Notes under the pieces: model-generated
Seen by the model: only the letters and a program-made list of their open reading frames with translations
What the model was told of the DNA's origin: nothing
The model's database searches: none
In this document: one piece after another, positions 424 through 53,523 of the stretch
Numbering within the stretch: position 1 is the first letter of the stretch
Layout of the letters: the number at the start of each line of letters is the position of its first letter
Translations under genes and position numbers: made by a program
Source of the DNA: Rhizophagus irregularis
Taxonomy: Eukaryota > Glomeromycota > Glomeromycetes > Glomerales > Glomeraceae
DNA length: 64,000 nt
Direction: 5' to 3'
Assembly (NCBI RefSeq): GCF_026210795.1
Contig: NC_089430.1
Location: 4,030,001-4,094,000, forward strand

Positions 424-3400
424 CACTGGTCAAAATAGTCCATTTCGTCCAAATTTCAAATTGACGAATATTGGACGAAAGTTGGTCTAATTTTGGCTGA
501 TCATTACCAAAAAAATCGTCAAAATTAAAATGCACGATTTGCACAGTTCGCCTGCCACTTGGCAATTACAATTCGGCAAAAATTCATTAAAAAATCGGAA
601 ATAACTATTCGTCAACTTTTACTAGACATTCGTCCAAATTTCAAATTGCCGAATGTTGGACAAAATTGAGTCTAATTTTGTCTAATTATTAACGATTTTT
701 ATGTATTTAGCTTATTTTTAATTTTGTAATAGCAATCAATTAATTATATTTTACTATTTCGCTTTATTAAAAATTACATATTAAAAAGTATTATATTAAA
801 TTTCTAATATCTACAGTATCTGTCTATTTACACCTACCATCTACCATCCACCATTTACCATTTACTATCGTCAACCATTGTCAACCATTATTAACTATCG
901 TCCACATCCATTGTCCACTACCCATCATTCACCATCCATCGTTCACCATCATCCACCATCATCCACCATTATCTACTCATCCAAAATTATCTACAACTCA
1001 CTCAGCTATCTGACAAAAGTCCGAAAGAGAAACCTAATAAAAAAAATAAAGAAATGGTTAGTAAACCGATTCTTTAATAAAAAAAAATTTAAGTTTCAAA
1101 ATATTTTGCAACTTACCCAACCAAAAATCTGAAGTGGAAACTTACCCATATATCCAAAGCCCAACCAAAAGTCAAAACCTACAAAATAGAAAAAAAATTA
1201 AAATAAAATTTAAAAAAAATCCTTTTTAAAATAAGTTTTGAAGTTTCACTTCAAAACTTACCCATATATCCAAAGCCCAAGAACTGAAAGTTGAAACCTA
1301 CAAAATAGAAAAATAATCAAAAATAAAATTAAAAAATATTTTTTTTTAAATTAAGTTTCAAAGTTTCTTCGAAACATACCCACATATCCAAAGCCCAAGA
1401 ACCGAAAGTCGAAACCTACAAAAAAGAAAAAAGAAACAATTAAAAAATATTTTTTTTTAAAAGTTTCGATTCTTTCATTCCGATCAAAATTTACATATAA
1501 TATATTCAACGTCCAATAACCAAAATCCTAAACCTACAAAATAAAAGAAAAAAAAATTAAAAAAATAATTTTATTTAAAAAAAGTTTTGAAGTTTTTACT
1601 CCGAAACTCACCCGTATATTCAACACCCAAGAACCGAAGGCTAAACCTACAAAATAGAAGAAAAAAAAATTTTAAAAAATATTTTTTAAAAAAAAGTTTT
1701 GAAGTTTTACTTCAAAACCTACCTATATATCCAACGTCTAAGAACTGAAAGAAACCTACAAAATAGAAAAAAGATACAATTAAAAAAAAATTTTGTTTAA
1801 AAAGTATAAAGATTCGTACTTACAAATCTTGGGTATTCTGTTCTTTGGAATCCCACCCGAGACACCTGAGACCTAAAAAAAAAATAGAAAAAGAACGGTT
1901 AGAAACTGTTCATAATATTAAAAATAAAAAATAAAAAATTAAGATTTATAGTTACTTACGAATCTTGATTTTTCATTGTTCTTCGGAACTCGAAAGCCTA
2001 CCAAACCTAAAAAAAATAAAGAAAAGAACAGTTATTAGTAACCGTTCATTAATAAAATTAAAAAAAATAAACAAAAAAATAAACCAAGATTCGTATATAC
2101 TTACGAATCTTGGTTCTTTTCTGATCTTTGGAATTTGGAAGTCCACTGAATCTAAAAAAAAGAACGAACGGTTATTAGTAACCATTCGTTAATAAAATTA
2201 AAAAAAAAATAAAATAAAAACCAAGATTCATATATATACTTACGAATCTTAGTTTTTTTCATTCTTCAGAATTTGGAAGCCTCTCCCGACACTGAACCTA
2301 TAAAAAATAAAAGAAAAAAAACGGTTAATAACCATTCATAATATTAAAAATTAAACAAATAAAAAAATAACCAAGTTTCGAACTTACGAAATTTGGTTTT
2401 TTCCATTCTTCGGAAGTTACCCCAGTACTGAACCTAAAAAAAAAGTAAAAAAAGAACGGTTAGTATTAACCGTTCATATTTTATTAAAAAAAAACAAAAA
2501 AAAAATTTAAAGAATTCATACTTACAAATTCTTTGGATTTCCATTCTTCAGAAGTCACCCGAGAGCCAAACCTAAAAAAAAAAAAAGTAAAAAAGAACGG
2601 TTATTAGTATTAACCGTTCATATTTTATTAAAAAAAACAAAAAAAAAAATTTAAAGAATTCGTACTTACGAATTCTTTGGATTTCCAATCTTCAAAGCCC
2701 ACCCGAGTGCCGAACCTAAAAAAAAGTAAAGAGAACGGTTAGTATTAACCGTTCATATTTTATTAAAAAAAAATAAAAAAAAAATTTAAAGAATTCGTAC
2801 TTACGAATTCTTTGGATTTCCAATTTTTGAAGCCCATCCGAGTGCCAAACCTAAAAAAAAAAGTAAAGAGAACAGTTAGTATTAACCGTTCATATTTTAT
2901 TAAAAAAAAATAAAAAAAAAAATTTAAAGAATTCGTACTTACGAATTCTTTGGATTTCCAATTTTTGAAGCCCATCCGAGTGCCAAACCTAAAAAAAAAG
3001 TAAAGAGAACGGTTAGTATTAACCGTTCATATTTTATTAAAAAAAAAACAAAAAAAAATTTAAAAAATTCGTACTTACGAATTCTTTGGATTTCTATTCT
3101 TCAGAAATCACCCAAGAGCCAAACCTAAAAAAAAAGTAAAATAGAACGGTTATCATTAGTATTAACCATTCATATTTTATTAAAAAAAAATAAAAAAAAA
3201 TCCAAAGAATTCGTACTTACGAATCTTTGGATTTCTGTACTTTAGAAGTCCACCCGAGTGCCGAAACTATAAAAAAGAACGGTTAGTTTTAACCGTTCAT
3301 ATTTTAATTAAAAAAAAAGGGACGAAAGGAAGTGGAAAGGGGAAGGGGAAAGGGGAAAGGGGAAGGGAAGGAAGGAAAGGAAAGGAGAGGAAAGGGGAAA

Positions 3401-3805
3401 GGGAAAGAAGGGAAGGGAAAGGAAGAAATTAAAAAAGTTTAAAAAAGGATGCATAAGATGAATCTTTTTTAAACTTTTAATACGCATATTGCGTAATGTG
3501 TAACATTTAATTAGTAACATAATTCAATCATAGATCATCGAATATAGGCCAATTTGTATTAAGGCCAAATATTCCAAGTCGATCGTGTGGTTAATAAAAA
3601 AATTGATAAAAAAAAAGTACTGGTCGATTTATGGTTTTTTTTTATGTTACAACTCAATCAAAAATTAACCAAAAATCGACCAGTTGATTTATGCCAAAAT
3701 ATTTCCAAATTTTGTAATTAGCCGATTGTATGACGAATCACGTGACGACGATGATGAACTTTTGACGAAAAGTATTAATGCTGAAAGAAATGATTTCGAC
3801 CAGTA
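424..3805. mobile_element. Non-autonomous CACTA-like element, copy 1
   Basis: Begins CACTGGTCAAAATAG and ends in GATTTCGACCAGT plus a mutated final base, the inverted ends expected for the CACTA (En/Spm) superfamily. It encodes no protein. It contains, in order, palindromic subterminal sequence, a CATCCACCAT-type simple repeat (about 840-990), a long array of intron-like units on the minus strand (about 1010-3270), a purine-rich GGGAAAGG tract (3310-3430), and a distal segment containing GATCGACTTGG. The same order occurs inverted at 27364-30252. The left flank is TAT and the right flank TAA. These do not match each other, but they match the flanks of copy 2 crosswise (see findings). Confidence 0.85.
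1010..3270 (-). repeat. Tandem array of micro-exon/intron-like units (CACTA copy 1)
   Basis: About 100-150-bp units, best read on the minus strand. Each has a T-rich tract ending in TAG, a 33-54-nt block, a GTAAGT donor usually within the palindrome GAATTCGTAAGTACGAATTC (variants end in GATTC), an AT-rich stretch, and the palindrome AACGGTTAATACTAACCGTT or a variant. The last contains TACTAAC, the consensus branch-point box. Units near 2600-3060 are nearly identical to each other; those toward 1010 are more diverged. The blocks are often 46 nt and so not multiples of three, which argues against coding. Short reading frames here simply track the repeats. Confidence 0.8.
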
Positions 3806-7670: not shown

Positions 7671-9445
7671 CACTAGTCAAAATAAGGCAAATCAGAAATA
7701 AAGCAAATCATCTTTATTTCGGCTAAATTTTGGCTAATAATCAATGATCATCTGTATATCAGGTGATATTTGGTGTAGCCGATTTCTGATTTCACTAGTT
7801 GAAAAAGACCAGTCTATATTCAATTAAAAATTCAACTATGATTTATGATTAGACATTGGTCAAATAATCTAATTAAACATCATGTGTTACGCGTATCAAA
7901 AGATATTTTTTAAACTTTTCCCTTTCCCTTCTTTTCACTTCTCTTCGTCTCTTACTCCTTTACTTTCCCTTGTCCTTCCTTATTATCCATCCTTCCCTTC
8001 CTCTATTATCTTTTCCTTTCCCTTTCGTCTTTCCCTTACTTCCCCTTTCGCTCTCTCCCTTTTCTTATACCTTTCTTCTGCCTCTTTTTCTTAAAAGTAA
8101 TGTAAGTTTTGTTTCAAAACTTACATATTTTTTTTTAATTTATTTTTTTTTAATTTTATATTTTTTTTAATTTAAGAAATGAATTAACGTTTCTTTTCAT
8201 TGTTTTTTTTTGTAGGACGCTGACTTTAACACAAAACTGGACTTTAAGATAAAAACGGGAAAGGAGAAGTTTTGTTAATTTAAGAAATGAACTAACGTTT
8301 CTTTTTATTATTTTTTTTGTAGGATGCATAGGAGAACGCTGGCTTTAACATAAAACTGGACTTTAAGGTAAAAAATAGGGGAAGGAAGATGAGATTTAAG
8401 AAACAGATTAATTAAGTCTTTGGTTTTTATTTTTTAAATATTTCGGAATGGTTACTAACAGTTCCTTTTTCTTTTTATGATAGGTTCAGTGGATTTCCGA
8501 TAAATGAATGAACCAAGATTTGTAAGTACGAATCTTAGTTTATTTATTTTTTTTATTACTTAGAATGGTTTACTAACCGTTCCTTTCTTTTATTTTTTAG
8601 GTTTCGTTTAACTTCTGAAGATTAGAAAAAAAGGAACCAAGATTCGTAAGTACGAATCTTGGTTTATTTTTGTTTTTTTTTATTACTTGGAACGGTTTAC
8701 TAACCGTCCTTTTCTTTTATTTTTTAGGTTTCGGTTGACTTCTGAAGATCAAAAAAAAAGGAACTAAGATTCGTAAATACGAATCTTAGTTTATTTTTTA
8801 TTTTTTTTATTATTTTAGAATGGTTTACTAACTGTTCCTTTCTTTTTTTTTTATAGGTAGGCTTCCAAGTTCTGAAGAATGGAAAAAGATCAAGATTTGT
8901 AAGTATATATGAATCTTGGTTAAATTTTTTTTATTAATATTAATGAATGGTTACTAATAACCGTTCTTTTTTTTATAGGTTCAAGTGGATTTCTGATGAA
9001 TGGATAAACTAAAACTAAGATTTGTACTAAAACCAAGATTCGTAAGTATGAATCTTGGTTTATTTTATTATTATTATTTTATTATAATTTTAAATTAGCA
9101 ATATTTATTTGTAATTTAGATAGATGCTAATAATAATAATATAATTATAAAGTTTTTAAGCATTTAATTAATAAATACATTTAAAAAATTTGATAATAAA
9201 AATTGAAATAAATTCAGAAAAAAATAGTCCGATTTTTGTCCAATTTAAGTTCTGAAGTACATCTGATTGATTGTCTGAATTTAGTCTGATTTAATTCTGA
9301 TTTATATCCAATTTAAATTCCAAAGTACATTTAATTGATAACAATCAGAATATATTTTTTTTGCAAAAATTGGATATATTTAAGCCGTAATTCAACCTAA
9401 AATCAGATATCCAATTTTAGCCGATTTGCCTTATTTCGACTAGTG
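7671..9445. mobile_element. Non-autonomous CACTA element with 3-bp target duplication
   Basis: Inverted ends CACTAGTCAAAATAAGGC and GCCTTATTTCGACTAGTG, flanked by the exact 3-bp repeat TAC (7668-7670 and 9446-9448), the hallmark of CACTA (En/Spm) transposition. It is 1775 bp long and has no transposase. After a pyrimidine-rich tract (7915-8090) comes an array of intron-like units on the plus strand (about 8100-9070): T-rich tract, TAG, a block of roughly 35-55 nt, GTAAGTACGAATC, then GGTTTACTAACCGTTC containing TACTAAC. The organisation matches the larger copies at 424 and 27364, but the terminal sequence defines a separate subfamily. Confidence 0.88.
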
Positions 9446-14822: not shown

Positions 14823-16281
14823 ATGTTGCCAAACGCAAACAGGAAGAAGCAGGTATATGACTTACCGGTAAAAAAGTTTTCAGTATAACGATAACAATTT
14901 TATTCATATACTTTTAAAATGTTGTAGGTGCAACCACGCAAAATTGCTCCGATGAGAGCTCCTATGGCTGCTCATCGTGATGAAAATGTTGTTGCAACAA
15001 AACAACTTGCTATCCGTGAAGGAGTTAATAATGTTACCGCGATTCCACAAAAAAAACTCGGTGTGGTAACGAGAAAACGCGCGGTGCTTATGGATCGTAC
15101 AAATGTCTCACTTAAACAAAATTCAGTCAATGAGCAAACACATGATATCACAAAACCAATAATAAAAGAGAATGTAAATTTAGGTTTTCAAGATATAAGG
15201 TCTAAAGAGAAACATGAACTATCTTTTGATACTACACTTGCAACAACTGCGGAATCGGAAATATATGAATTTGATCGAAAGCGCTCTAAAAAACAAAAGA
15301 CTCAAGACTGGGAGGACTTAGATGCAGATGATTTCTACGATCCTATGATGATTTCTGAATATGCTGTGGATATCTTTAAATATTTAAAGGATTTAGAGGT
15401 ATTTTAATGAAGAAATTGATTGTATTATTAATCTATAAATTATTTAAATTATTTAAATTATTTAAATTATTTATATTAGAGTGAAATAATGCCTAAACCT
15501 GATTATATGTCATCTCAATCCGAACTAAGTTGGAGAATGCGAGGAATTCTTGTCGATTGGTTGATCGAAGTTCATCATAAGTTTCGCCTACTTCCTGAAA
15601 CATTGTTTTTAGCGGTAAACATCATTGATCGCTTCCTTTCAGTCCGTGTTGTTTCCCTAGTCAAACTTCAGTTAGTTGGAATTACTGGGTTATTTATTGC
15701 GGCAAAATATGAAGAACTATTGGCTCCGTCGATAAAAAATTTCATTTACATGGCTGATAACGGATACACGGAAGAAGAAATTCTCAAAGCAGAACGATAT
15801 GTTCTTACGACTATCGATTTCAAATTGTGTTACCCAAATCCCATGAACTTTCTTCGACGATCCTCCAAAGCTGATCATTTTGACATTCAAGCACGTACTG
15901 TTGCTAAATATCTTATGGAGATATCACTTGTTGACTATAAGTTTTTACCATTACCGCCCTCAATGATTGCTGCAGCCGCTTTGTATCTTTCTAGGAAAAT
16001 GCTTAACCGTAGTGAATGGGTATTTAAGTCATTATTATGTATCAACATTTGATAATGTATCATGAACTAAAATTATTCTTTTTTTTCAGCATGCCAACTT
16101 GATCCATTACTCGCAATATACTGAAGAAGAGCTTCAACAATGTGAGCAATTAATGCTTCAATATTTAATGAAACCCACAAAACATGAGCAATTATATAAA
16201 AAATACGCCGCGAAAAGATTTATGAAAGCTAGCATATTTGTCAAAGATTGGATATCTAAAAACGTAGAAAGGCAGCAATAA
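14823..16281 (+). CDS. B-type (mitotic) cyclin
   Basis: G2/M cyclin, the regulatory partner of the cyclin-dependent kinase that drives mitosis. Four exons: 14823-14852, 14928-15398, 15480-16019, 16090-16281. All introns start GT and end AG, and the reading frame is kept across them. The N-terminal region contains a destruction box, RAVLMDRTN, fitting RxxLxxxxN for APC/C-dependent degradation. The cyclin N-fold begins with SWRMRGILVDWLIEVHHKF and contains LFIAAKYEE. The C-terminal fold follows, with ALYLSRKML and YTEEELQQC. The first coding exon gives MLPNANRKKQ; no earlier in-frame ATG is evident. Length is about 410 residues, normal for fungal B cyclins. The GNL1-type gene starts 184 bp downstream on the same strand. 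It could equally be named a CLB/cdc13-type cyclin; orthology to one particular paralogue is not resolved. Confidence 0.93.
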
Positions 16282-20455: not shown

Positions 20456-21570
20456 AGAAATTGCCTAAACTTAATATTAATAAAGTATATATAGATCATT
20501 AAAATATATATACAATATATATAACTTAGTTATAATGATTAAAATTGATGAAATTCAAATCACTACTACTTATTCAAAAAAAAATGATAAATGTAAAGTA
20601 TAAGCTATACAATAAAAAAACATTAAAACGAATATGAACATAAAATTATAGTTATAAAATGTTTTTTAATAAAGTAATAGCAATTCAAAATTAAAATATT
20701 TTACTATTAAATTAAATATTTGGTCACTTTACTTTGACCAAAATTATATGTAAATCTGGCCAAAATTACTTTTAGTTATATAAATCTAGCTAAAATTATA
20801 TTTAAGTCTAGCTAAAATTACAAATTATAATTTAAACTATATAAATCTAGCCAATAAAATTGCAAATTTAATGTATCATATGATATACAGTCAACTCTCT
20901 TTATAGTCATCCATTTGGAACAGTCCATATTTGATGATTATAAAGAGATGTGACTATATAAAAAATTTCTTATATTAGTATATCATAATTCCGGCCAAAA
21001 ATTAACATAATTTTGGCCAAAATTATACTCAAAACTTTATTGTATTGTAACTCTGCCAATATTAGTCATAGAAAGATAATCTTACCACCATTTGATTCGT
21101 CTTGATGAGTCAGTTCTAATGATATAAAATACATCGAAATCTGATCACTAGATTAATTTTCAAAATTAAAAAAATATTAATGGTTTTTGTGTAATAACTT
21201 TGCCAATATTGATCCTAAAGAGATGATCTTACTACCATTCGATTCGTCTTAATGCAACGAATCTAATGGTATAAAATACATCAAAATCTAATCACTAAAT
21301 CAATTTCCAAAATTAAAAAATATTAAATGGTTTTTAAGTAGTAACTCCTTCAATATTGATCACAGAGAGATGAGCTTACTGCCATTTGATTTATTTTGAT
21401 GAGGCAATTTCAACGAGCTATTAATCGTCTTTTTACAATCACTAGGTACTGAGAAATTTAGAAAAATGTTAAATAGCGTAGTAAACGTAAATCAAGAAAT
21501 ATAATAATGCCGATGCTTAACATTTTGTTGAATAACTTATTAACCAATGATCGTAAAAGAATAAAACTAC

Positions 21571-26349: not shown

Positions 26350-27363
26350 AATGAATTCGAAAACTATGATTTTAAGCATATGCAGGATCTTATAGTTTTT
26401 CTTTCCAATTTGTTACACTTATCAGTAATTAAATTTTTACTGATTGAAAAACATTCTTCAAAGGAACGCTAGTAGAAGGTATAGCTAAATAATCCATCGC
26501 CATCTTAGCAAGTCTAGGAAACTGGGTTTGGTTTACTTTCCACTATTGAAGTGGATCAACGCTTTTATCACAAACTGGTGATAAAAGGTATACTTGAAAT
26601 TTATCAATCTCTTGAGTATATTTTCATTTAAATATTTTTGATGTAATTGAATTTTTATATTCATTATTCAAAGAATTGCTTAAAGTTGAACTTGAGTTTG
26701 GATTAGAATAAGTAGAATTATAAACATTTAAAAATCTAAAAATTAATATTTAAATATTGTTAGTATATATATAATATTATAAATTATAACTAAAAATAAA
26801 TTTTAAAATATTAAAAATATTAACTTTTCGTGAATTTTCTTCCTCTGATCATCATTCCATGTCTCGTCATTATAGTACTTCATTTTAAGCCTTGGATCTA
26901 AAATTGTTACAATAACATACGCATCATTCGTCTTGTTATAGTATTGGAGTAATTTTTCCCAGCTATTTGTAGCTGCTTTTTTAATAATTGATTCTTTATC
27001 TACACTTCCATTTTCATCATCACCTTCGTTTTCATCTTCATTTTCATTTACATTTTCATCTTCAAATATATAATCTTCCATATGATCAATTAAAGCATTA
27101 TATAAAGGAATGAGCATTGAAAGTGTAGGATAAGATGAACCGGACATTAATACTGTTATTTCTTTAAATTTTTCAAGAAATAATTTAACTTTCTCAAGTT
27201 CAGTTCATTTATCATCCATAATAACGAAATTTTTAAGATCTTTTTCAGAAAGTGCAAGGGAATTAAGCGCCTAGTAAAATTTTATAAATTAATAAATATT
27301 AATTAATAATAAATAAAGTTATATAATTTTACTTCTTTTAAATATAAAGTTCTATTGATCATA
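26350..27363 (-). pseudogene. hAT transposase fragment (C-terminal side of the interrupted gene)
   Basis: Minus-strand continuation of the gene whose upstream part is at 1-166. Reading down from 27363: MINRTLYLKE, an intron with donor GTAAAATT and acceptor ACTAG (about 27271-27331), then ALNSLALSEKDLK, KFKEITVLMSGSSYPTLSML (27110-27180), an acidic insertion DENVNENEDENEG, and SWEKLLQYYNKTNDAYVIVT with ILDPRLKMKYY (26860-26970). After a second AT-rich gap come WKVNQTQFPRLAKMAMDYLA and IPSTSVPLK (about 26440-26560), the hAT C-terminal dimerisation region. Stops near the end, and loss of its 5' part to the CACTA insertion, make it inactive. Confidence 0.8.
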
Positions 27364-27879
27364 CACTGGTTGAAATCATTTCTTTCGGCATTAATACCTT
27401 TCGTCAAAAGTTTGTCATCATCATCATGTGATTCATTACACAATCGGCTAATTACAAAATTCGGAAATATTTCGGCATAAATCAACTGGTCGATTTTTGA
27501 TTAATTTTTGATTGAGTTGTAATATAAAAAAAAACCATAAATCGACCAGTACTTTTTTTTTATCGATTTTTTTATTAACGACACGATCGACTTGGAATAT
27601 TTGGCCTTAATACAAATTGGCCTATATTCGATGATCTACGATTGAATTATGTTAATAATTAAATGTTACACGTTACGTGATATGCGTATTAAAAGTTTAA
27701 AAAAGATTTATCTTATGCATCCTTTTTTAAACTTTTTTAATTTCTTCCTTTCCCTTCCCTTCTTTCCCTTTCCCCCTTTTCTCTCCTTTCCTTTCCTTCT
27801 CTTCCTTCCCCTTTCCCCTTTCTCCTTTCACTTTCTTTCGTCCCTTTTTTTAATTAAAATATGAACGGTTAAAACTAAC

Positions 27880-29690
27880 CGTTCTTTTTTACTTTTTTTT
27901 TAGTTTCAGCACTCGGGTGGACTTCTGAAGTACAGAAATCCAAAGATTCGTAAGTACGAATTCTTTGGATTTTTTTTTATTTTTTTTTAATAAAATATGA
28001 ACGGTTAATACTAATGATAACCGTTCTATTTTACTTTTTTTTTTAGGTTCGACTCTTGGGTGATTTCCGAAGAATGGAAATCCAAAGAATTCGTAAGTAC
28101 GAATTCTTTAAATTTTTTTTTTTGTTTTTTTTTAATAAAATATGAACGGTTAATACTAACCGTTTTCTTTACTTTTTTTTTAGGTTTGGCACTCGGATGG
28201 GCTTTTAAAATTGGAAATCCAAAGAATTCGTAAGTACGAATTCTTTAAATTTTTTTTTTTATTTTTTTTAATAAAATATGAACAGTTAATACTAACCGTT
28301 CTCTTTACTTTTTTTTTTAGGTTTGACACTCGGGTGGGCTTTGAAGATTGGAAATCCAAAGAATTCGTAAGTACGAATTCTTTAAATTTTTTTTTTGTTT
28401 TTTTTTAATAAAATATGAACGGTTAATACTAATAACCGTTCTTTTTTACTTTTTTTTTTAGGTTCGGCTCTCAGGTGACTTCTGAAGGTAAATCCAAAGA
28501 ATTTGTAAGTATGAATTCTTTAAATTTTTTTTGTTTTTTTAATAAAATATGAACAGTTAATACTAACCGCTCTTTTTTACTTTTTTTTTTAGGTTCGGCA
28601 CTGGGGTGACTTCCGAAGAATGGAAAAAACCAAATTTCGTAAGTTCAAAACTTGGTTATTTTTTTTTTGTTTAATTTTTAATATTATGAACGGTTATTAA
28701 CCGTTCTTTTTCTTTTATTTTTTATAGGTTCAGTGTCAGGAGAGGCTTCCAAATTCCGAAGAATGAAAAAAACCAAGATTCGTAAGTATATATATGAATC
28801 TTGGTTTTTTATTTTGTTTTTTTTTTAATTTTATTAACGAACGGTTACTAATAACCGTTCGTTCTTTTTTTAGATTCAGTGAACTTCCAAATTCCGAAGA
28901 TCAGAAAAGAACCAAGATTCGTAAGTATATACGAATCTTGGTTTATTTTTTTGTTTATTTTTTTTAATTTTATTAATGAACGGTTACTAATAACCGTTCT
29001 TTTTTTTAAAAAATATTTTTTAAAATTTTTTTTTCTTCTATTTTGTAGGTTTGGCCTTCAGTTCTTGGGTGTTGAATATACGGGTGAGTTTCGGAGTAAA
29101 AACTTCAAAACTTTTTTTAAATAAAATTATTTTTTTTAATTTTTTTTCTTCTATTTTGTAGGTTTAGGATTTTAGTTATTGGACGTTGAATATATTATAT
29201 GTAAGTTTCGATCAGAATGAAAGAATCGAAACTTTTAAAAAAAAATATTTTTTAATTGTTTCTTTTTTCTTTTTTGTAGGTTTTGACTTTCGGTTCTTGG
29301 GCTTTGGATATGTGGATAAGTTTTGAAGAAACTTCGAAACTTAATTTAAAAAAAAATATTTTTTAATTTTATTTTTGATTATTTTTCTATTTTGTAGGTT
29401 TCAACTTTCGGTTCTTGGGCTTTGGATATATGGGTAAGTTTGAAGTGAAACTTCGAAACTTATTTTAAAAAAGGATTTTTTTTTAAATTTTATTTTAATT
29501 TTTTTTCTATTTTGTAGGTTTTGGCTTTTGGTTGGGCTTTGGATATATGGGTAAGTTTCCACTTCAGATTTTTGGTTGGATAAGTTTCGAAATATTTTGA
29601 AACTTAAATTTTTTTTTATTAAAGAATCGGTTTACTAACCGTTTCTTTATTTTTTTTTGTTAGGTTTCTCTTTCGGACTTTTGTCAGATA
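27880..29690 (+). repeat. Tandem array of micro-exon/intron-like units (CACTA copy 2)
   Basis: About 14 consecutive units on the plus strand. A clear example: TACTAAC at 28154-28160, T-rich tract, acceptor TAG at 28181-28183, a 46-nt block 28184-28229, donor GTAAGT at 28230-28235. By eye the blocks are 46, 46, 46, 46, 43, 46, 54, 47, 35, 39, 36, 36 and 33 nt long, followed by a last incomplete one. The early units share GAATTCGTAAGTACGAATTC at the donor and AACGGTTAATACTAACCGTT at the branch point, both palindromic. Later units (29050-29560) have GGGTAAGTTT donors and TTTTGTAG acceptors. One unit has ATAAGT instead of GTAAGT. Lengths not divisible by three argue against a coding role. Confidence 0.85.
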
Positions 29691-29699
29691 GCTGAGTGA

Positions 29700-29860
29700 G
29701 TTGTAGATAATTTTGGATGAGTAGATGATGGTGGATGATGGTGGATGATGGTGAACGATGGATGGTGAATGATGGGTAGTGGACAATGGATGTGGACGAT
29801 AGTTAATAATGGTTGACGATGGTTGACGATGGTAAATGGTAAATGGTGGATGGTAGATGG
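29700..29860. repeat. Simple repeat, GATGGTGGAT type
   Basis: Degenerate tandem repeat of GATGGTGGATGATGGTGAAC-like units within CACTA copy 2. The reverse-complement counterpart in copy 1 is at about 840-990. Confidence 0.85.
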
Positions 29861-30252
29861 TAGGTGTAAATAGACAGATACTGTAGATATTAGAAATTTA
29901 ATTTTTAATAAAGCGAAATAGTAAAATATAATTAATTGATTGCTATTACAAAATTAAAAATAAGCTAAATACATAAAAATCGTTAATAATTAGACAAAAT
30001 TAGACTCAATTTCGTCTAACATTCGGCAATTTGAAATTTAGACGAATGTCTAGTAAAGGTTGACGAATAGTTTATTTCCAATTTTTTAATGAATTTTTGC
30101 CGAATTGTGATTGCCAAGTGGCAGGCGAACTGTGCAAATCGTCCATTTTAATTTTGACGATTTTTTTGGCAATGATCAGCCAAAATTAGACCAACTTTCG
30201 TCCAACATTCGTCAATTTAAAATTTGGACGAAATGGACTATTTTGACCAGTG

Positions 30253-32040
30253 TTAGTACGTTTCTTCAAAGTAAATTCCAAAAAAACCCACCCTCACACA
30301 CTTACCCAATATCCCAAATAATCTAAGAATCCGAAATCTACAATTGTAAAGAATAAAAAAAGAAACATTAGTACGTTTCTTCAAAGTAAATTCTGAAAAA
30401 ATCCACCCCACACACTTACAAAGACCCTGGGAAGACAAAATTTACAAAAAAAGAATAAAAAGAAATGTTAGTACGTTTTTTCAAAGTAAATTCCGAAAGA
30501 ACTCATACACATTTACCAATATCCCAAATAATTCAGGAAGCCGAAATCTACAATAAAGAATAAAAAAAAAATGTTAGTACATTTCTTCAAAGTAAATTCT
30601 GAAACCCGTAAATCTGAAAAAACATTTCACATAAAAAACCCATACACAAAAAATCCGGGAAGATGAAATCTACAAAAAAAAATAAAAAAAGAAACGTTAG
30701 TACGTTTCTTCAAAGTAAATTCCAAAAGAACCCATACACTTACTTACCCAATATCCCAAATAATTCAAGAAGCTGAAGTCTACAAAAAAGAATAAAGAGA
30801 AACGTTAGAAAAATAAATAAATAAATAAAAACAAAAAAGAAACAAAATCCCCTCCTCCTAACTTACCTTCAAGCCGAAATCCAGTTCCAGGAAGGTGTTC
30901 CCTTAGAAAAACGAACGTCCTAAGCCGTTTAAGCCAAATTCCGAAGGGGAAGACTGAAGGAGAATAAAAAATATTTTTTTTTAAAAAAAAAATAAAAAAA
31001 AATAGGATTTGACCAGATTATCTGATCAATCCGGTCAATCCAGTCATCCATGTAATATCTGATCTAGGATTGCTTGCCAAAACTAGGGTTTCGCAAAATC
31101 ACCTGAAGTTTCGGTTAGGATCCAATCATTTATTGATCATTGATAATCTAATAAAAATCAATACTTAAAAAAAAAATATTTCATTTTTTATTTTTTTTGT
31201 AGGAGTCGGACTCCTATTTTTTGTAGAACGCCGGACCTTGGAGACCAGGACGAACTGTCAAACCAATAAAGGTAATGTGGGAGAAGGAGATCGGGGTTAT
31301 GTGTTTTACTGTAATTAAGAAACGTTTTTAACGTTTCTTTCTTTTTTTTTGTAGAACTAGGACGCTGGACTCTTGGAAACGAATCCGGACTTAGAATGTG
31401 TGTAAGGAAAGAGGAAGGGTTAATATTAAAGAAATGTTTTTAACGTTTCTTTCTTAATTTTTTTTATAGAACTAGGACGTCAGACTCTTGGAAGCGAATC
31501 TGGACTTGGATAATGTAAGGAATGGGAAGAGGGGGAAATGTTTTTTTAATATTATGTAAAGAAACGTACTTACGTTTCTTTCTTTATTTTTTTGTAGGGC
31601 TAGGACGCCGGACTCTTGAAAACGAATCCGAACTTGGATAATATTAGGAATAGGGGAGGGGAATTGGTTTTTTGAATATTAAAGAAACGTACTAACGTTT
31701 CTTTCTTTGTTTTTTTGTAGGACTAGGACACCAGACTCTTAGAAGGCGTATTTACATTTGATGTAAGTTGGATGGGTGTAGTGTGTCATGTGTGTTAAAT
31801 AAGAAACGTTTCTAACGTTTCTTTCTTCTTTTTGTAGGAAAGCCGGACGAAATTACGAACTGGACTTTTGAGTGAAGGTATTAATGGGAAAGAAATTTAC
31901 TTCTCTTAGTAACGTTACTAACGTTACATTTTTTTTTTTATTGTAGGAACGCTGGACGAATTATACAAACTGGACTTTAGTGAAAGGTAAATGAGGAAGG
32001 GGGAGTTTCACGTTTATTTTTTTTCCTTAGTAATGTTACG
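30253..32040. repeat. Two converging arrays of intron-like units (arm of another CACTA-like element)
   Basis: 30253-30960 holds four to five minus-strand units with TACTAAC inside AAACGTACTAACGTTT, acceptor TTGTAG and donors of GGTAAGTG type. A middle section (30990-31160) contains TTTGACCAGATTATCTGATC and a MITE-like GGATTGCTTGCCAAAAC segment. Then 31180-32030 has about seven plus-strand units with TTTTTTGTAG, a 45-60-nt block built on GGACGCTGGACTC, a GTAAG or GTATT donor, and an AACGTACTAACGTT palindrome. CACTA copy 2 is inserted in the minus-strand arm (target TTA). The left arm, now at 3806-4386, was separated by the inversion. The right end of the parent element could not be located. 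Confidence 0.65.
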
Positions 32041-33802: not shown

Positions 33803-34099
33803 TATCACTGGTCGAATAAAGAAGCATCGGTATATGAAACATCAAATAAATATCGGATCATATCGGAAAATCGAAAATTTTCTGATATTTCTTAAACATA
33901 TAAGGCAAGAATCGATATACTAATTAAGTACGATATTACATTACATAGAAACCGATATTTGTAATATTCGTAATACGAAAAAAATCAGGTTTTTTGTGAA
34001 AAGCTATCAGTTAGCCGATATGTCTTTGATATAGTATATGCACAATCGGAAAGCTTTCATAGGTCTATCGATTTTTTGTTTTATTTAAATATATCAAAT

Positions 34100-34362
34100 A
34101 TATCCGTATATTTTTTTTTTATGCGAAAAATAATTATTTTAAAATTTTTTTTTCTTTTCGTGTGAGAAAAATAATTATTAGTATTTTTTGAAACGATATA
34201 AAATTAGCCAGTATAATTTTGTAAAACAATAAAAAATTGCATCATTATTGTTTAATTTTTTTTTTCTTTTCGTGAGAAAAAATAATATTTTGTGATATAT
34301 TTTTGCGAGACAATATTTTTTTTTCTTTTTGTGAAAAATAATTATTTTTAACGAAACAATAT
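34100..34362. repeat. Degenerate subterminal repeats of the CACTA element
   Basis: Three to four imperfect copies of a T-rich block, TTTTTTTTCTTTTCGTG, followed by AAAAATAATTATT, lie between the left terminus and the transposase stop codon. Confidence 0.6.
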
Positions 34363-37300
34363 TTAAATATTAAATTTTCTATTTATTGGAATAACCGATA
34401 TATATTTTTTTGGATTTCTCTGACCAACTTCGAAACTTCCTGAAACAAATCGACATAAAATATTATGTATGGGAATGATGCAATCCCTTCCCATTTCAAA
34501 AAATTCTGCTTTCCACAACTCAATATTACAAGATTTATCATCATCTTTATCTATCTTACAGTGAAACCTTATCTTGTGGTTTTCAGCCGCCTTATACCAT
34601 CTTACAAAGGCTAAATAATGTGTTTTAGGACCCTCTGGTAACCAAATGGTGTGTTCAAAAAAAAATTGAATCTGGCCGGGATATGTATCAGACGAATTAT
34701 CGCTTAAGATAAAGCGTGCCAAAATCTTTGCTGATTTTGCATGCTGGGAAGACAATGTTGACCCAAATATTTCCGTTCCAATTTTTAATCGGCTAAATTG
34801 ATTGACTTTCGAAAGAATTGGAATAGATCCGTCCGGAGCATTATGAAGTTGCGATAGTGTGACAAAATTTTTATCATACGTATTGTGATAAAATTCTGCC
34901 AATAAAAGTAAAATATCTTGCTGTAAAGATATATCTTTTTTTGACGGACCTAAAAAGGAGCCCGGAAATGGTTCAGTACCAAAAGCTGCGCCTTCTTCTA
35001 TATTTGCTGATAATAATCGAAACGTTCGGTGGTCTTCATCGCTGTACATAGAAAGGCTTCCAACCGAATCATTAAGCTTTAATATTTCAAGACTTTCCCG
35101 AAGCTGTTGATTTTGATCAGCGTGAGATGTTAATTCATCAAGAATGGTATTATTTTGCATAATTTTCATAAGTTCTGGTTCAATTTTTCTTCGACTGTTA
35201 TGTAACGATCCTAAAAATGTGATAGAATAATATTAATATACAGTATATTATGATAGATTATTGGTATCTGGAGATGATCAAATTACCCAATAACCCGTTC
35301 ATTCGTTCCATTGAGTAGCACCAGAACGAGTATAGAGGGCCATAATCCAATGAACATTCACATAAATGTATACACAAATGCAAATTAGGAGAAATTTTTT
35401 TAGGCCCGTAAGTTTTCTCAATTTCTTTAACCATTTCTAGCAAACGTTGGTGAGCTTCTATAAGACTATTTTTTGATACTATTCTGCATACCAAAATATT
35501 ACAAGCACGCACAAAGTTTGCTAAAATTCTTCGATCTGGCTCTTTCAAAAGATCCCAGGTAATAGACGTTGCATATATTAACATAAATGTTTTCCACTGG
35601 TCTGCAGAAAACCCAGAAAAGCCTTCTCCTGTTGACATTTTGTTCGGAAGCCTACCAATATCCGCTGGTACCTGGATTCGGTTGGCCCTTTCTTGCATAA
35701 GTAATAGGTTTTCCGGGTTTAATTTTCCTTCTTCAATCCATAGTCTCATTACGATCCACTTAGCAATGCCTAGGAAAAGGCAGTGCATGGGATCCACTAC
35801 AAGAAAACGTACAGGATTAAAGTAAGGTAATCGATATATTTCGGACCATCGTACCAGGGTTTTTGATACATGATTCCGACGTTGCTCTTGTGTTTTGCAA
35901 TTTTTCCATGCAAGTGCATTATTTTTAATTTCCTCAACATTTCTTTCTATAAACCAGCTATCTATATCGGCTAATCCTCCAAAATTCGGTTGATTCCTAT
36001 CATCAAAACTGGCATGTTTAAGACATCGATGGCATGCAATTCTCGCAGATATATACCCACAAAGTTTTCTTGCAGCGGGTATATCGCAGGAACAGCATAT
36101 AATAGCACCTCTAATTTTTTCACCATTGGGATTCTCAAAAGTTTCTGATAAGTCTATACCATGCCATAGTTCAATTAATTGATCAATGAGAGGAGCCAAG
36201 TAGTGATTTAGATGATGTAATTTTGGTTCTTTGAATACCCGGAATTAACGCTAATGTTAATATATTGGAAGGTTTAAACCTCTCATTTCGGGGCAAGTTG
36301 CAAATGATGGCATAAATTGCTCCTGTGCTATATTGAGAATTTTCGTAAGGTTGGAACCAATCGATATTGAGCATTATTCCGAGGTGAGTATTTGCCGTTT
36401 CTGGCCGAAAGAAGGTTACCCCATTATCATCACTAAATGACTTCCATATTCTCCCGTCATATACATCAGTAAGAATCTCTGGGTCAGAAGGACGGTTAAC
36501 CCACTTTCGGCATGATTCTTCAAAGCCTTTTCGCTTGAATAGATTATTCAACTGATGTTTCAAGCTGACCGTAGGAAATATTAAATTTGGCCTTTTAATT
36601 ATACCATTTTTTGTACAAACTTGCTTATACAAAGGAGTTCCGCAAGCATTTTTTTTGTGACTCATCGGGTGGTTAGGAAAATCTTGGTATATGCAATTCG
36701 TGAATTTAGGCGTAAGGTTAGGATTACTGCTAGATACATCAGAAACCTTATACAATTTACAGCACTTTTCACAAGCCGCATATTTTATCAAATGAGCACA
36801 AATTCCGAGATTCTTTTGTGCCATATAGAGAGATGTAGGAAATGTAGAAAACAAGTTTTCGTCTATATTCACAAGAACGTAGCGGAAAAATTTAAAGAGA
36901 TAATTTATCGCTACGTTAGATAGCCGACACCTCTCCTGGTACTTCAAGATCCATACAACAATCCACAAAAAAGGGTGATCTAGTCCTTCAGCATGCCCAT
37001 AATTGCTTTCTCCTAATTCCATTTCAGGTGCATCAAAATTCACTTGGTAATCTTCTTCTGAATCATCTGATGAATATTCTGAAGTAATATCTTCAAAGTT
37101 TCTTTCATTGTCTTCTTCAGATGCATTGTCACCATTATCAGATAATAGTTCATTTATTATTTCCGGAAGAGAGGTTTCAGACCTTCTGTATTTTTGAGAA
37201 GCAATTGGTGCTCTTTTTACTAAAAAGGGATAGCTCTCTTCTTGCGGTTCTTCGTTATAGCTCATATCGTTACAATTAAAATCATTTTCTGGATTTGGAG

Positions 37301-37529
37301 GCGCTAATGGAATTTCTGGTGCTTCAGGAAAATTACGGGTAGTTTTGCGTTGAGGTTTAGTCTTGTTCTTGGTGTGAGATGCTTTAGTTCTAGGATCTAC
37401 TGCTTTTCCTTTGCAACCCTGACAGTAGCATGGTTCAAACTTTCGATTTCGGGGAGGACGAGTATAGGGAGTTTTCTGAACACTTTGAACGCTAATTGTA
37501 TTATTAGACATTTTGAATTCTTTTAACAA
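34363..37529 (-). CDS. tnp2-type CACTA transposase with one frameshift
   Basis: Transposase of the CACTA/EnSpm tnp2 family, predicted to cut and move the surrounding element. It runs leftward from ATG at 37529 (a second in-frame Met six codons on is an alternative start). The N-terminal zinc-binding-like motif is CYCQGCKGK. Next come a long Glu/Ser-rich linker and a cysteine cluster CEKCCKLY with CGTPL. The core follows: MLNIDWFQPYENSQYSTGAI, ICNLPRNERFKPSNIL, CSCDIPAARKLCGYIS with CHRCLK, and VVDPMHCLFLGIAKWI, all typical of tnp2. A single-base shift near 36229-36233 breaks the frame between LALIPGIQ and PKLHHLNHYLAPLIDQLIEL. An intron at 35211-35286 joins MERMNGLLG to SLHNSRRKIEPELM. The last exon ends at 34363. 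Apart from the shift the gene looks intact. Confidence 0.85.
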
Positions 37530-37786
37530 AGAATGAGAAATTTATTATTTATTATAATAATTATATAATGGTATTTTATTGTTTAGCCACAATTTGTGAT
37601 TTATAGTTTAAAGTTAGTTTGTTTCAATTATGATCGTAACGCGTTTATATGATCTACATACGTATATAGTTTAACTAATTTAAACTCTTTCTTTTTTCTT
37701 AATTTTCTTACCAGATCCTCGGCTTTTCTTACTTTGCCTAATATTATCTATTTATTATTTTTTTTCAAGTACCTAATTATACAACA

Positions 37787-39956
37787 ATGAACAAAAACAA
37801 GTAAGTTAAAAAAATTTTTAGAATCATGCAAAATTACAGATTCTAAGATTATCTTCGATGGTATAGAAAAACTTCGTTACAAGAAAAAAGAGTTAAAAGT
37901 CAAACTCCATATTCTCATCAAGATGACTCTTCATACTCAGAAGAAATTTCGTATTCTCGTCGGAAAAGTATTTCATTAAACATGAATAGAAGTCAAACTC
38001 GAGATAATGTTTCTTTAAACAGAAATAGAGGCCGGACTCGGGACAATGTTCCTTTAAATAGGAGCAGAAGTAACTCTCCATACACTCATCGGGATAATAT
38101 TTCGTTAAATAGGAGCAGAAGTAAGCTCGCCATACGGCTGGCAGGACAATGTTTCGTTAAATAGGAATAGGAGTAACTCTCCATACACTCATCAGGATAA
38201 TGTTTCTTTAAACAGAAATAGAGGCCGGACTCGGGACAATGTTCCTTTAAATAGGAGCAGAAGTAACTCTCCATACGCTCGCCAGGACAATGTTTCGTTA
38301 AATAGGAATAGGAGTAACTACTCCATACACTCATCAGGATAATGTTTCTTTAAACAGAAATAGAGGCCGGACTCGGGACAATGTTTCGTTAAATAGGAGC
38401 AGAAGTAACTCTCCATACGCTCACCAGGATAATGTTTCGTTAAATGGAAGCAGAAGTCGCTCTCCGTACTCTCGTCGGGGCAATGTTTCGTTAAATGGAA
38501 GCAGAAGTCGCTCTCCGTACTCTCGTCGGGGCAATGTTTCGTTAAATGGAAGCAGAAGTCGCTCTCTCGTACTCTCATCGGCAAGTCATCTCGTTAAGCA
38601 GGAATAGAAATCGGTCTTCATACGCTTCTCGAGAAGATGTCTTACTAAATAGGAATAGAAAACGAACTCCACATTCTTCTCATCGGGGAAATTATCTGTT
38701 AAATGTAAGGGATATTGAAAGAGAAAGAAGGGAAAGTAATGTTGGTGAAGAAAATCATGGAAGGAATAAGAGCAGAGAGAGAAATCTTGAAGGTAATTTC
38801 ATAAAAACATGATAGATATAAAAATTGTATTTCGGCTACTAATAATATATCAGAAATTTCAGAATTACGTACGGCCATCTCGGATTTAGGAAGAGAAGTA
38901 AGAGGACTTCGTCAAGAAAAGGAAGATCAACCAAGGACGCAACATTCCTGGTCTCCTGATCCATCATCAACTAGATATACTAAAGTCTGGAAAGTTTTAG
39001 AGCCAATGGATCACGAATACAAGAAAGCTTTCCGGGTTAGTATAAGATATTTGTGCGTAAACATGTTAATCTTTATTTAAAATTTTTTCCTAATATAGGA
39101 CGAAATTGTCCAAATTCTAAAGGGTTTAGATGATTCTTTGACGATAGATCATAAGAACCGTTGGACTGACATCGAAAGACATGTGACTCAAGATACCATT
39201 CCAGCTATAAAGAGAGTTCTCGGTAATAAATTTCAGTATACCGATATAGAACTGAAGAAGGTTTTACAGAATCTTCATCGCCATCGAAGGGATGCTTACA
39301 ATGTTTCAAAAGATCCTTTAAAATCGAAAGTGAACAAACGACGAACTGGTATAAACACCAGGAGAAAAGATGTGAGTATCAGTTTCATATTAATTTATTG
39401 ATTTTTTATTACATTTTAATACTAATATTTATTCGTTATTTTATTATATTACAAAAGAAAAAGGAGAGACGGCAGAGAGGATTTCGTCATATGTTAAGTA
39501 GGAGAGATCAGAAGCTAACAGATCTTCAGCCTTCTATACCATGGGATGATTGGATTGAAGGCTTAGAAGCGATTATCAATGACTCAAGTTATCATTCAGA
39601 TGAAATTTCAGAGTCAGACGAAGAGAAAGTACAAGAAGAAAAGAACAGAAATATTCGCCCATCACGAAACGAAAATTCAAACCATGTGATTCACGTGTAC
39701 GATAAACAATGGAGATCTAGTAAGGTAGGTTATATACATAAAATAAGAAATATATTTATTTACATTTTACTAATTAAATTTTTATCTATAGATTCGAAAT
39801 TTTTTACGACATGCTGATTTGACGGGAGAAAGTATTCAGAATATAAAAGTAGGGAGGAAGAGGTGGTATAATGATCAATTGTATATAGAAAATAATTCAA
39901 AACCACCTCGTAATGCACCGGCATGGGCAATTTCATCTTCATACCGTTCTGAATAG
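37787..39956 (+). CDS. Second CACTA gene: RS-repeat protein, frame disrupted in the repeat
   Basis: Divergent from the transposase and inside the same element. The first exon may be at 37787 (MNKN then a GTAAGT donor), but the first junction could not be settled. The N-terminal half is a 17-residue repeat (see 37955-38640) rich in Arg, Ser and Asn, with forms such as SLNGSRSRSPYSRRGN, similar in composition to RS domains of SR splicing factors. Next are RDIERERRESNVGEE, an intron (about 38788-38852), a coiled-coil-like ISELRTAISDLGREVRGLRQ, and RYTKVWKVLEPMDHEYKKAF. A second intron (about 39033-39098) leads to DSLTIDHKNRWTDIERHVTQ and a basic, helix-rich region, then introns at about 39371-39457 and 39725-39791. 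The C-terminus is acidic and ends at 39954-39956. By position it is a tnpA-like accessory gene; no family was recognised. Small indels in the repeat shift the frame. Confidence 0.6.
37955..38640 (+). repeat. Coding minisatellite, 51-bp and 39-bp units
   Basis: About 13 units within the second CACTA gene, alternating full 51-bp units (AATGTTTCGTTAAATAGGAG start, encoding NVSLNRSRSNSPYARQD-type repeats) and shortened 39-bp units (NVSLNRNRGRTRD). The last full units (38448-38560) are almost identical and encode the most SR-like form. Three units carry a +1 length change relative to the consensus, near 38120-38145, 38315-38325 and 38560-38580. Together they restore the original frame, so the protein would have out-of-frame stretches if all are real. 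Confidence 0.8.
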
Positions 39957-40679
39957 ATACTTATTTTAAAGGTCTTTGGCGAAAAGTATCGATCGTTAGA
40001 AATAATTTCCGTTCTGTATTTAAAGATCAGCAATTTATTGATTTAAATTTGTATTAATTATTTATTACTAGGAAACTTTTCGTGGCATTTAATATTAAAT
40101 TCAATATTTAAATTCAATTTATTTTTAATAAAAATTACAAATATGATATAAATATCGTACTAATATTATATATAGATTATTAAGTATATAAAACATATCA
40201 GAAATTACATTATACTTATATCGGAAGAAAATCTAGATAAATCGGGAAATATTTAGGGGTACCGATATTTCTCTCTATCCGCTGATATTCATAATAAAAT
40301 CGTCTGATGTGACAGAACCGAAATTTACATTAAAGATGCATGATTTGCGCCAAGAACCGGTCACAAATCGGGTGGATCGATCAGCTGCCATTCAGGTCAA
40401 AATCGAAAATGTATAATAGGGCTATCGGGTATATGAAATTTACCCGGTACCCTTCATTTATTTCCAGTGTATTACATAGTATAATTATGTTCAACTTTAT
40501 TTGATTTTACATAGCAGATAGTGTAAGATTTGTATTATTGCTTTTATGTAAATAAATTTATAAATTTTAATAAAATTGAATTTCATTTAGCCAAAATTAA
40601 AATAAAAAAAAAGAGATATAAATCTATTAGTTTTAATATGAAATTGTCAAACGTATACAATAAAAATATATATTACCAA

Positions 40680-41058
40680 TATTTTACATATTTTACTACC
40701 TGATATATGTGTGTTAAATGTATGATATCTATAATATATATCACTGATATTTTACTACCCAATATGTGTGTGTTAAATGTATGATATCTATAAGATTTAT
40801 CACTGATATTTTACTACCCAATATGTGTGTGTTAAATGTATGATATCTATAAGATATGTTACTGATATTTGACTACCCGATATGTGTAAGATATGTATAT
40901 GATGTTTACATGATGTGTCACCAATTTTCTACATTTATACTACACATATCAGGTACCCGATATGTGTAGTATTGTTAAATATCATACACATATATTACAT
41001 ATATTATACACATATCAGGTACCCGATATGTACCCAATAGCACCAATTTTGACCAGTG
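40680..41058. repeat. 59-bp tandem repeat followed by a CACTA-like terminus
   Basis: About three and a half units of 59 bp (each with CACTGATATTTTACTACCCA and GTTAAATGTATGATATCTAT) lie at 40692-40880. They are followed by inverted ATACACATAT/CAGGTACCCGATATGTG motifs and finally CCAATTTTGACCAGTG at 41058. That looks like a CACTA right end outside the complete element. The matching left end was not found. Confidence 0.65.
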
Positions 41059-44060: not shown

Positions 44061-44304
44061 TATGTTTACTAATTGGTCCCCAGTGATTTTTTTGATGATA
44101 TATTCATATCTGTAATTTTTCAGATGATATTTTCATGCTCACGTATTTTTATAGTTTATTTATACCTCTCCCACTCTCTCCCATCACTGGACGTTAGCTT
44201 ATGAGATAAAAGAGTTATTTCGCGTATCATAAATATGTGATTTTCAACGGGCCGCGCCGTAAAATCGATGATATTCATGACTTTCCCCGTGAAATAACTA
44301 TTAC

Positions 44305-51589: not shown

Positions 51590-52330
51590 CAAATCCAAGT
51601 CAGGATCAGAACCGATAGACCTACAAAATGAAGAAAAAATTAAATATTTTTTAAATATTAAAAGTGTTTCGAAATGAAACTTTTCAAAACTTACTATTAC
51701 CGATCTAAGCTGATGGTAACTTAAAAAATAAAGAATATTTTTAAAAAAGGTTCGAAATGAAAGTTTTCAAAACTTACTGTTATCGATCCAAATCCAAGTT
51801 CAAAGATCGGTGCCAATAGTTCCTACAAAACAAAGAAAAAAAATTTAAATATTTTTTTAAATATTAAATAAAAGTAAAAAAGGTTCAAAACGAAAGTTTT
51901 CAAAACTTACCATTACCGATCCAAATCTAAGTCCAAAGATCAGAGTCGATGGACCTAAAACAAAGGAAATAAAATTAAATACAATATTTTTTTTCAAAAA
52001 AAATATTAAAAATTTCGAAAGCTAAGCTAAACTTTCAAAACTTACCGATCCCATATCGAAGTCTGGGATCGTTCCTAAAAAAAATTTGAAAATGGAACAT
52101 TAGTAAAGTTCACTAATGTTCCTAATTTAAAAAAATTTCCCCCTCCCCTCTTTATTTACCTTCTGAGACGTTTCGTCAGTTCTGAAGCGTCTTGAGGATC
52201 CTACAATAAAAAAAAAATGGAACGTTAGTAAATGACACTAACGTCCATAATTTAAAAAAAATCCCCACTTCCCTTCTTTAATTACCTTCTGAGGCGTTCC
52301 GTTAGTTCTGTGTCTGGAAGGTTAATAAAA
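51590..52330 (-). repeat. Intron-like tandem units in the nested CACTA element, left block
   Basis: Minus-strand units with T-rich tract, TTTGTAG or TTTTAG, a block of about 40-50 nt built on ATCGGTTCTGATCTTTGGAC, a GGTAAGTTTTGAAAA or similar donor, and GGAACGTTAGTG...TTTACTAACGTTCC palindromes that contain TACTAAC (about 52215-52245). Five to six units. Confidence 0.7.
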
Positions 52331-52417
52331 AAAATCATTTTTTTTTTTATTTTTTTTATAAAAAAAAAGATCATGTCTGATAATCTGTTATTCAGACTTA
52401 TCAGATCATGTGATCTA

Positions 52418-53523
52418 CAGTCAACTCCCTCTATAGTCACTCCCGTTATAGTCACATTCTACTATATAGTCACACCAGTTGAATGTTCAAAACACTTTAT
52501 TATTAAAAACTATCCTATATAGTCACAATCTATCTATAGTCACTATCACACCTATCCTCAAAAATCTTATATTAAAAAGAACCGTTTATAATCACAGTTA
52601 TATAAAGAATATATTAAATAACTTGGCATCTAATAATCGTACAAAGATGTATCATAGCTTGTTAGAATCGTCTCACTGAGATGAATCGAATGGTGGTAGT
52701 TTTATCCTTTTGCGATCACTGGCTGACGAGTTATTCAACAAAATGTTAAGCATCGGCATTATTATATTTCTTGATTTACGTTTACTGCGCCATTTAACAT
52801 TTTGCTAAATTTCTCAGTACCTAGTGATTGTAAAAAGACGATTAATAGCTCGTTGGAATCGCCTCATCAAGACGAATCGAATGGTGGTAAGCTCATCTCT
52901 CTGTGATCAATATTGACGGAGTTACTACTTAAAAACCATTTAATATTTTTTAATTTCGGAAAATGATCTAGTGATTGGATTTCGATTTATTTTATACCAT
53001 TAGATTCGTCGCTTTAAGACGAATCGAATGGTAGTAAGATTGTCTCTCTAGGATCAATATTGGCAGAGTTATTACACAAAAATCATTAATATTTTTTAAT
53101 TTCGGAAATTAATCTAGTGATTGGATTTCGATGTATTTTATACCATTAGAACCGTCTCATCAAGACGAATCGAATGGCGGTAAGATCGTCTCTCTAGGAT
53201 CAATATTGGCAGAGTTATTACACAAAAACCATTAATATTTTTTTAATTTCGGAAATTAATCTAGTGATTGGATTTCGATGTATTTTATACCATTAGAACC
53301 GTCTCATCAAGACGAATCGAATGGCGGTAAGATCATCTCTCTACGATAATATTGGCGGAGTTACGATACAATAAAGTTTTGAATATAATTTTGGCTAAAA
53401 TTATATTAATTTTTGGCCGGAATTATGATATACTAATATAAGAAATTTTTTATATAGTCACATCTCTTTATAATCACCAAATATGGACTGTCCCAAATGT
53501 GTGACTATAAAGAGAGTTGACTG
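52418..53523. mobile_element. Pogo/Tigger-like element, copy C (intact non-autonomous)
   Basis: 1106 bp with ends CAGTCAACTCCCTCTATAGTC and GACTATAAAGAGAGTTGACTG, and TA on both sides. It is in reverse orientation relative to copies A and B. It has the short internal form without large insertions, so it shows the pre-insertion state of the other two. It contains about four direct repeats of roughly 147 bp (52906-53350), each with TCAAGACGAATCGAATGG and GATCAATATTGGCAGAGTTA. Confidence 0.9.

Follow-up and report, generated by a model that had tools for sequence, protein, structure and literature searches.

Why should a transposon carry thirteen intron-like units in a row, and is it the DNA, the RNA or an encoded product of such an array that selection keeps? 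The question is raised by an element lying in a 64,000-nucleotide stretch of DNA (C2:4030001-4094000) of Rhizophagus irregularis, a fungus living in association with plant roots, hereafter "the window", the numbering of which is used below except where a locus elsewhere in the genome is named. A first-pass annotation had described the element as CACTA-like and filled with tandem micro-exons and consensus introns.

The element and its ends

The element, designated copy 1, has these parts:

27364..30252, + strand: copy 1, non-autonomous CACTA-like element with CACTGG...CCAGTG ends; flanks ATA (27361-27363) and TTA (30253-30255)
27740..27845, + strand: CT-rich tract preceding the array, promoter-like by general analogy
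27950..29663, + strand: the array proper, with 13 intron-like units
29664..29930, + strand: last exon, its end being assumed; contains AATAAA at 29907-29912

Inverted-repeat ends of the CACTA (CMC-EnSpm) type are present, as CACTGG...CCAGTG and CACTAG...CTAGTG; across copies the ends read CACTGGTC...GACCAGTG or CACTAGTC...GACTAGTG. Perfect 3-bp target duplications flank seven of the nine array elements for which both ends were located: CCA (L015, taking the outer of two candidate left ends), ATA (L016), ACA (L018), TAT (L020), TAC (the element at 7671-9445), GCC (L036) and TAT (L037). The two exceptions are the two copies in the window, each with one mismatch, in a swapped pattern (ATA..TTA and TTA..ATA). 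CACTG termini and 3-bp duplications together identify 27364-30252, by sequence, as a non-autonomous CACTA-like transposon, and the class assignment of the first-pass annotation is borne out by the termini and duplications. There is no transposase inside copy 1.

What copy 1 contains instead is laid out like a gene: a CT-rich tract, then intron-like units alternating with micro-exons, then AATAAA. CT tracts are parts of fungal promoters. Such a tract precedes the array, on the array strand, in eight of the nine elements (at most 0.73 on the opposite strand). AATAAA follows the last called intron in all nine; this is weak evidence, because AATAAA also occurs inside the introns and is common in AT-rich sequence.

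The array

The introns called in copy 1, all on the + strand, are:

Introns 1-5: 27950-28046, 28093-28183, 28230-28320, 28367-28461, 28505-28592
Introns 6-10: 28639-28727, 28782-28873, 28921-29048, 29084-29161, 29201-29279
Introns 11-13: 29315-29397 (donor GT lost), 29434-29517, 29551-29663

Their lengths are, in order, 97, 91, 91, 95, 88, 89, 92, 128, 78, 79, 83, 84 and 113 nt. There are 14 exons, the 13 before the last measuring 46, 46, 46, 46, 43, 46, 54, 47, 35, 39, 35, 36 and 33 nt. GT donor, branch box, pyrimidine tract and YAG follow one another in the order, and at the length, of U2-type introns. The signals are not uniformly intact. Each of the 13 units closes with a YAG that a T-rich run precedes; the donor is an exact GTAAGT in 11 of them (the exceptions being GTGAGT at 29084 and GATAAG, which lacks the GT, at 29315); TACTAAC or TACTAAT is found in eight (the unit at 28639 reads TATTAAC instead, and a box of the TACTAAY type is absent from the four units from 29084 to 29517). 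That five units lack TACTAAY and one lacks its donor GT counts against the notion that selection maintains splicing. Even so, dinucleotide shuffling leaves the array far above chance: 27845-29700 contains seven strict donor-branch-acceptor introns, whereas 500 shuffles average 0.008 and never yield more than one.

Most of what had been claimed for the array survives this scrutiny: its placement and strand, the flanked blocks of 33-54 nt (the measured range of the exons before the last), the positions of TACTAAC at 28154 and of its acceptor at 28183, and the co-occurrence of the signals beyond a shuffled-sequence control. The "about 14 units" resolve into 13 introns and 14 exons, and the statement that each carries every box does not hold, as the counts above make plain. 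Three things had been passed over: the palindromes at donors and branch points, a second copy at 424-3805, and a related element at 7671-9445.

Palindromes at the splice signals

Palindromes of differing sequence enclose many of the donors and branch points. Two examples from copy 1 are:

28078-28095 and 28098-28115, + strand: arms of a donor palindrome
28836-28847 and 28852-28863, + strand: arms of a branch-point palindrome, 100% complementary

Donor palindromes include CCAAGATTC-GTAAGTAC-GAATCTTGG; branch-point palindromes include GAACGGTTA-CTAA-TAACCGTTC, AAGGGAACGT-ACTAATTA-ACGTTCCCTT and AGGAAAC-TCTTACTAAC-GTTTCCT. Arms match their own unit better than other units (donors, 0.42 vs 0.15 and 0.62 vs 0.25; branch points, 0.27 vs 0.14). 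On contig C1 each of the 44 strict introns was checked for significant stems: 26 have one at the branch point, 27 at the donor and 36 at one or both of these places, while eight have neither. For 230 introns in 34 chains (147 starting with GTAAGT, 91 containing TACTAAY, 227 ending in TAG) the fold z-score has a median of -2.22 around donors and -1.74 around branch points; acceptors give +0.30 and mid-exon sequence +0.44. The corresponding values for 12 inferred host introns, some of them doubtful, run from -0.15 to +0.50; this control is weak because the 12 were drawn from 19 gaps in chaperonin genes and several have low scores. Stems over splice sites usually hinder splicing, and their presence is accordingly counted against a splicing function.

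The first-pass annotation had set the array apart from ordinary subterminal repeats. The intron units do set it apart; the same units are also palindrome arrays, possibly akin to binding-site repeats. Being a string of introns and being a string of palindromes do not exclude each other. At locus L068 (2260-4589) about a dozen tandem palindromes of the AATCGGAACGTT..AACGTTCCGATT type, without intron signals, run directly into an 11-intron array. This is consistent with arrays of palindromes having turned into arrays of introns; it also fits the alternative in which the palindromes alone matter. At L067 (3202-5131) intron chains can be called on either strand of a single array with a period of about 140 bp.

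Relatives in the window and in the genome

The remaining elements and arrays of the window are:

424..3805, - strand: copy 2, near full length, with a 17-intron chain; flanks TTA (3806-3808) and ATA (421-423)
7671..9445, + strand: related shorter element, CACTAGTC...GACTAGTG, duplication TAC/TAC, six called introns (the first doubtful)
30547..30866, - strand: array of another family, three-intron chain, branch palindrome GAAACGT...ACGTTTC
31594..32031, + strand: further array, three-intron chain (loose)
51822..52418, - strand: further array, five-intron chain (loose)
33806..41058, unstranded: likely tnp2-bearing relative with similar ends, CACTGGTCGAA...TTTTGACCAGTG; its 3-bp flanks, TAT and ATA, are mismatched
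35258..36199, - strand: open reading frame with a weak Transposase_21 (tnp2) match, 21.5 bits, short of the curated cut-off of 28.6

With three introns as the minimum for a chain, six chains are called in the window (ten introns in copy 1, 17 in copy 2, six in 7671-9445, and three, five and three elsewhere) and none in the window reversed or complemented, so that the splice grammar is specific to a strand. Complementing 14 other loci does yield one chain of three in each of two (L013 and L015), which counts against this specificity. There is no chain of three or more within 33806-41058.

Copy 2 begins, at its left end, with T in place of C. Copies 1 and 2 are in inverted orientation 23.6 kb apart, with their flanks swapped (ATA..TTA and TTA..ATA), and the TTA flank of each, taken jointly, restores the branch-point palindrome of the neighboring array family. 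The simplest reading is that the 23.6 kb between the copies was inverted by recombination between them. Copy 1 or its partner apparently inserted into the branch palindrome of another array.

The window holds other repetitive sequence. Tandem arrays of a similar 145-147-bp unit, one of them oppositely oriented, lie at 21048-21391, 48546-48900 and 52856-53363, and at 43104-44617 repeats of 10 and 30 bp (ATCACTCCAT type) make up a long array that yields long open frames. Host genes are represented by a cyclin at 15489-16052 (PF00134, PF02984) and an Rcd1-like exon at 62170-62556 (PF04078, at the cut-off).

A DNA search of the genome (146,748,485 bases in 32 contigs) gives at least 167 matches, 40 of 633 candidates having been scored. 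The strict intron pattern occurs 648 times (with one acceptor counted twice in a few cases), against six for the reversed pattern, the donor palindrome 384 times against none, and a branch palindrome 503 times against four. There are 155 tnp2 matches. Six Plavaka and six tnp2 loci, 12 of the 278 matches listed, contain no chain of three or more introns within about 1.5 kb of flank on each; an array inside an autonomous element remains compatible with a survey of that number of loci and that depth of flank. Arrays near tnp2 at C4 and C6 were considered as candidates for that arrangement and turned out to be independent array elements, each bounded by ends and duplications of its own, and L038 and L039 yielded nothing useful. 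In L036 (1994-6787) a 720-codon open frame with a tnp2 match has, at or inside its end, an array element of 2.7 kb (4089-6787, duplication GCC).

What is conserved, and what is not

Copy 1 can be compared in register with copy 2, L013, L014 and L015. (A technical note: all four comparisons share copy 1, which counts against their independence; the splice "core" is taken as six donor bases, seven branch-box bases and YAG.) The core has changed at seven of 477 sites, where exon rates, after matching by base and CpG, would give 46.2 changes and the rates of the region upstream of the array 27.2. Exons have changed at 133 of 1138 sites (11.7%), except that their last 11 bases, which form an arm of the donor stem, have changed at only 8 of 347 (2.3%). 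Change amounts to 2.7% in the donor, 0.5% in the branch box, 1.2% in YAG (one of 84), 2.8% in the T-tract, 2.6% in other intron sequence, 7.8% in the flanks of the branch stem, 6.9% in the downstream arm of the donor stem and 6.4% upstream of the array.

Several of these figures count against selection on splicing: the rest of the intron (2.6%, mostly T-runs) changes nearly as slowly as the core; the intronic stem arms (7.8% and 6.9%) change no more slowly than the upstream region (6.4%); L015, taken alone, has four core changes in 116 sites, as against 4.6 at the upstream rate. Part of the contrast between core and exons also reflects fast exons, since these change at 11.7% and the upstream region at 6.4%. 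For other families 14 sequences were compared in 108 ordered pairs, by best local matches that may be out of register in tandem arrays. In these, 909 of 8904 core sites have changed, as against 2041 expected; the acceptor is slow (4.0% vs 18.5% for exons), and the donor (10.9%) and branch box (12.5%) lie little below the rest of the intron (12.9%), which is again counted on the other side. Support for the claim that the array would be processed as many small introns and exons is thus indirect: it consists of signal order, spacing, and apparent constraint on donor, branch box and YAG while the exons drift.

Exon lengths vary between copies by 1-4 nt and copy 2 has gained a whole extra 46-nt unit; therefore no reading frame is kept. 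The motif GAAGA occurs in 54 of 176 exons, against 8.8 in shuffled and three in reversed sequence, a count inflated by homology among exons. Between 27904-29008 and its copies, changes in the branch-stem flanks are mostly C-T and G-A (18 and 12 of 46, partly out of register), as decay of methylated CpG would give.

Alternative explanations

The reading to which we lean is that copy 1 is a CACTA-like (CMC/EnSpm-type) transposon with a gene-like but non-coding unit that would be transcribed from the CT tract and spliced many times over, selection keeping the splicing and not an exon product. Might the introns be an illusion? If the palindromes are transposase-binding sites, making up one large repeat of the subterminal type, then donor and branch boxes could arise from palindrome cores (TAACG, AAGTTTCG) and neighboring T-runs with no splicing at all. 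Palindromes of differing sequence pervade the arrays, the intron-free run at L068 leads into an intron array, and the L067 array can be read on either strand; all this is to be expected of binding sites. What is not to be expected is that YAG and its T-run, which lie outside the palindromes, should be so little changed (one of 84 in register; 4.0% against 18.5% for exons in other families), that order and spacing of the signals should match introns, or that the splice core should be better conserved than the stem arms. Binding sites without splicing thus seem unlikely, though they have to be reckoned with. Low complexity or chance can practically be dismissed: the sequence is indeed AT-rich with long T-runs, and both the shuffles and the reversed patterns refute it.

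Two further possibilities accept the introns and differ as to the product. An "inside-out" gene, in which the exons are discarded and the introns supply the functional product as small RNAs (whether snoRNA-like, miRNA-like or in the form of stable lariats), would account for conserved introns, drifting exons and intronic hairpins. Nothing in copy 1 reaches the gathering score of any Rfam family (27300-30300; five sub-threshold matches), the donor hairpin crosses the exon boundary so that splicing would split it, and T-runs make up much of what is conserved in the introns; we regard such a gene as distinctly improbable. CACTA elements have a second protein, and the micro-exons might encode a repeat protein acting in that capacity. 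When the exons are joined, copy 1 shows a single open stretch of about 140 codons, and L036 has each of its three sense frames open over 163-212 codons. Its antisense is equally open, however (179-203 codons); stop triplets in 18 sequences number 200, against 227 in dinucleotide shuffles (L036, with 2 vs 6.0, and L037, with 5 vs 9.8, are low); and the exons, the fastest-changing part, have their frame shifted by length changes and unit gain. A coding function is accordingly very hard to credit. With a GC content of 0.50 in an AT-rich genome, the spliced exons of L036 have open lengths of 163-212 codons in each of the six frames.

Known systems

With CACTA (CMC-EnSpm) transposons and their non-autonomous derivatives copy 1 shares CACTA/CACTG termini, 3-bp duplications and tnp2-like relatives in the same genome; it differs in having an interior that is mostly a one-sided intron-exon array, without transposase. 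The palindrome arrays are candidate transposase sites, as the subterminal repeats of that superfamily would be. A paper on fungal introner-like elements and symmetrical stwintrons (PMC8469720) describes canonical introns that have multiplied and that carry inverted repeats along with predicted hairpins; those introns are single, in host genes, with a repeat that spans the intron and without target duplication, whereas those of R. irregularis are in tandem inside a transposon, with hairpins local to donor and branch point. Introners derived from DNA transposons likewise tie transposons to intron gain, and some families have terminal inverted repeats and duplications, according to PMC9860276; there the introner constitutes the intron of a host gene, and here the splice sites are internal and many. 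The ends of the present element are transposon termini, so that the mobile unit is not itself an intron.

A different comparison is with snoRNA host genes, in which introns are conserved and exons drift. The likeness goes that far; the array elements are mobile and present in many copies, and no snoRNA reaches gathering score in the introns of copy 1 (27300-30300 searched).

No description of such arrays was found in the full texts of open-licence papers, in agreement with the earlier suggestion that the class is undescribed, though agreement is no proof. The main text of two papers on R. irregularis transposons (PMC8647823, PMC11075540) has no word beginning with "intron" or "splic"; PMC8647823 does place CMC-EnSpm among the most represented expressed families in this fungus. 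What is new here is the occurrence of palindromes of differing sequence around donors and branch points.

A possible purpose

If copy 1 is indeed maintained for splicing, why should its splice signals be embedded in palindromes? The array may be primarily a platform of palindromes at the DNA level, to which transposase perhaps binds. As RNA it would be a string of hairpins and a potential target of RNA silencing; embedded introns would let the spliceosome excise the hairpins or separate their arms, and the palindromes would be tolerated because the spliceosome cuts them out. The resulting transcript would resemble an efficiently spliced host mRNA. On this proposal, which is offered tentatively, palindromes serve the DNA, introns clear hairpins from the RNA, and mimicry of host mRNA perhaps evades silencing. 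Three papers bear on it: in Cryptococcus, poorly spliced transposon RNA feeds a spliceosome-coupled RNAi (PMC5851062); in Cryptococcus, too, introns raise mRNA levels cumulatively (PMC3744415); and 40 AGO-like genes have been reported in R. irregularis (PMC11075540). By analogy, the Cryptococcus pathway and the AGO-like genes make evasion plausible, no more.

One can, with comparable reserve, think of these arrays as possibly a new kind of selfish element, the payload of which is splicing: tandem introns embedded in hairpins, separated by discardable exons, that render the element's own RNA harmless by having it cut and so form a shield against silencing. The Cryptococcus defense, directed at poorly spliced transposon RNA, would have its mirror image in an element built of consensus introns. 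The arrays join three questions: how transposons survive RNA-based defense, why introns multiply in tandem, and what RNA structure does at splice sites. Junctions are predictable for hundreds of units, and splicing therefore lends itself to direct test. If the arrays are elements of this kind, most of the full-consensus introns of this genome would belong to its transposons and not to the genes of the host.
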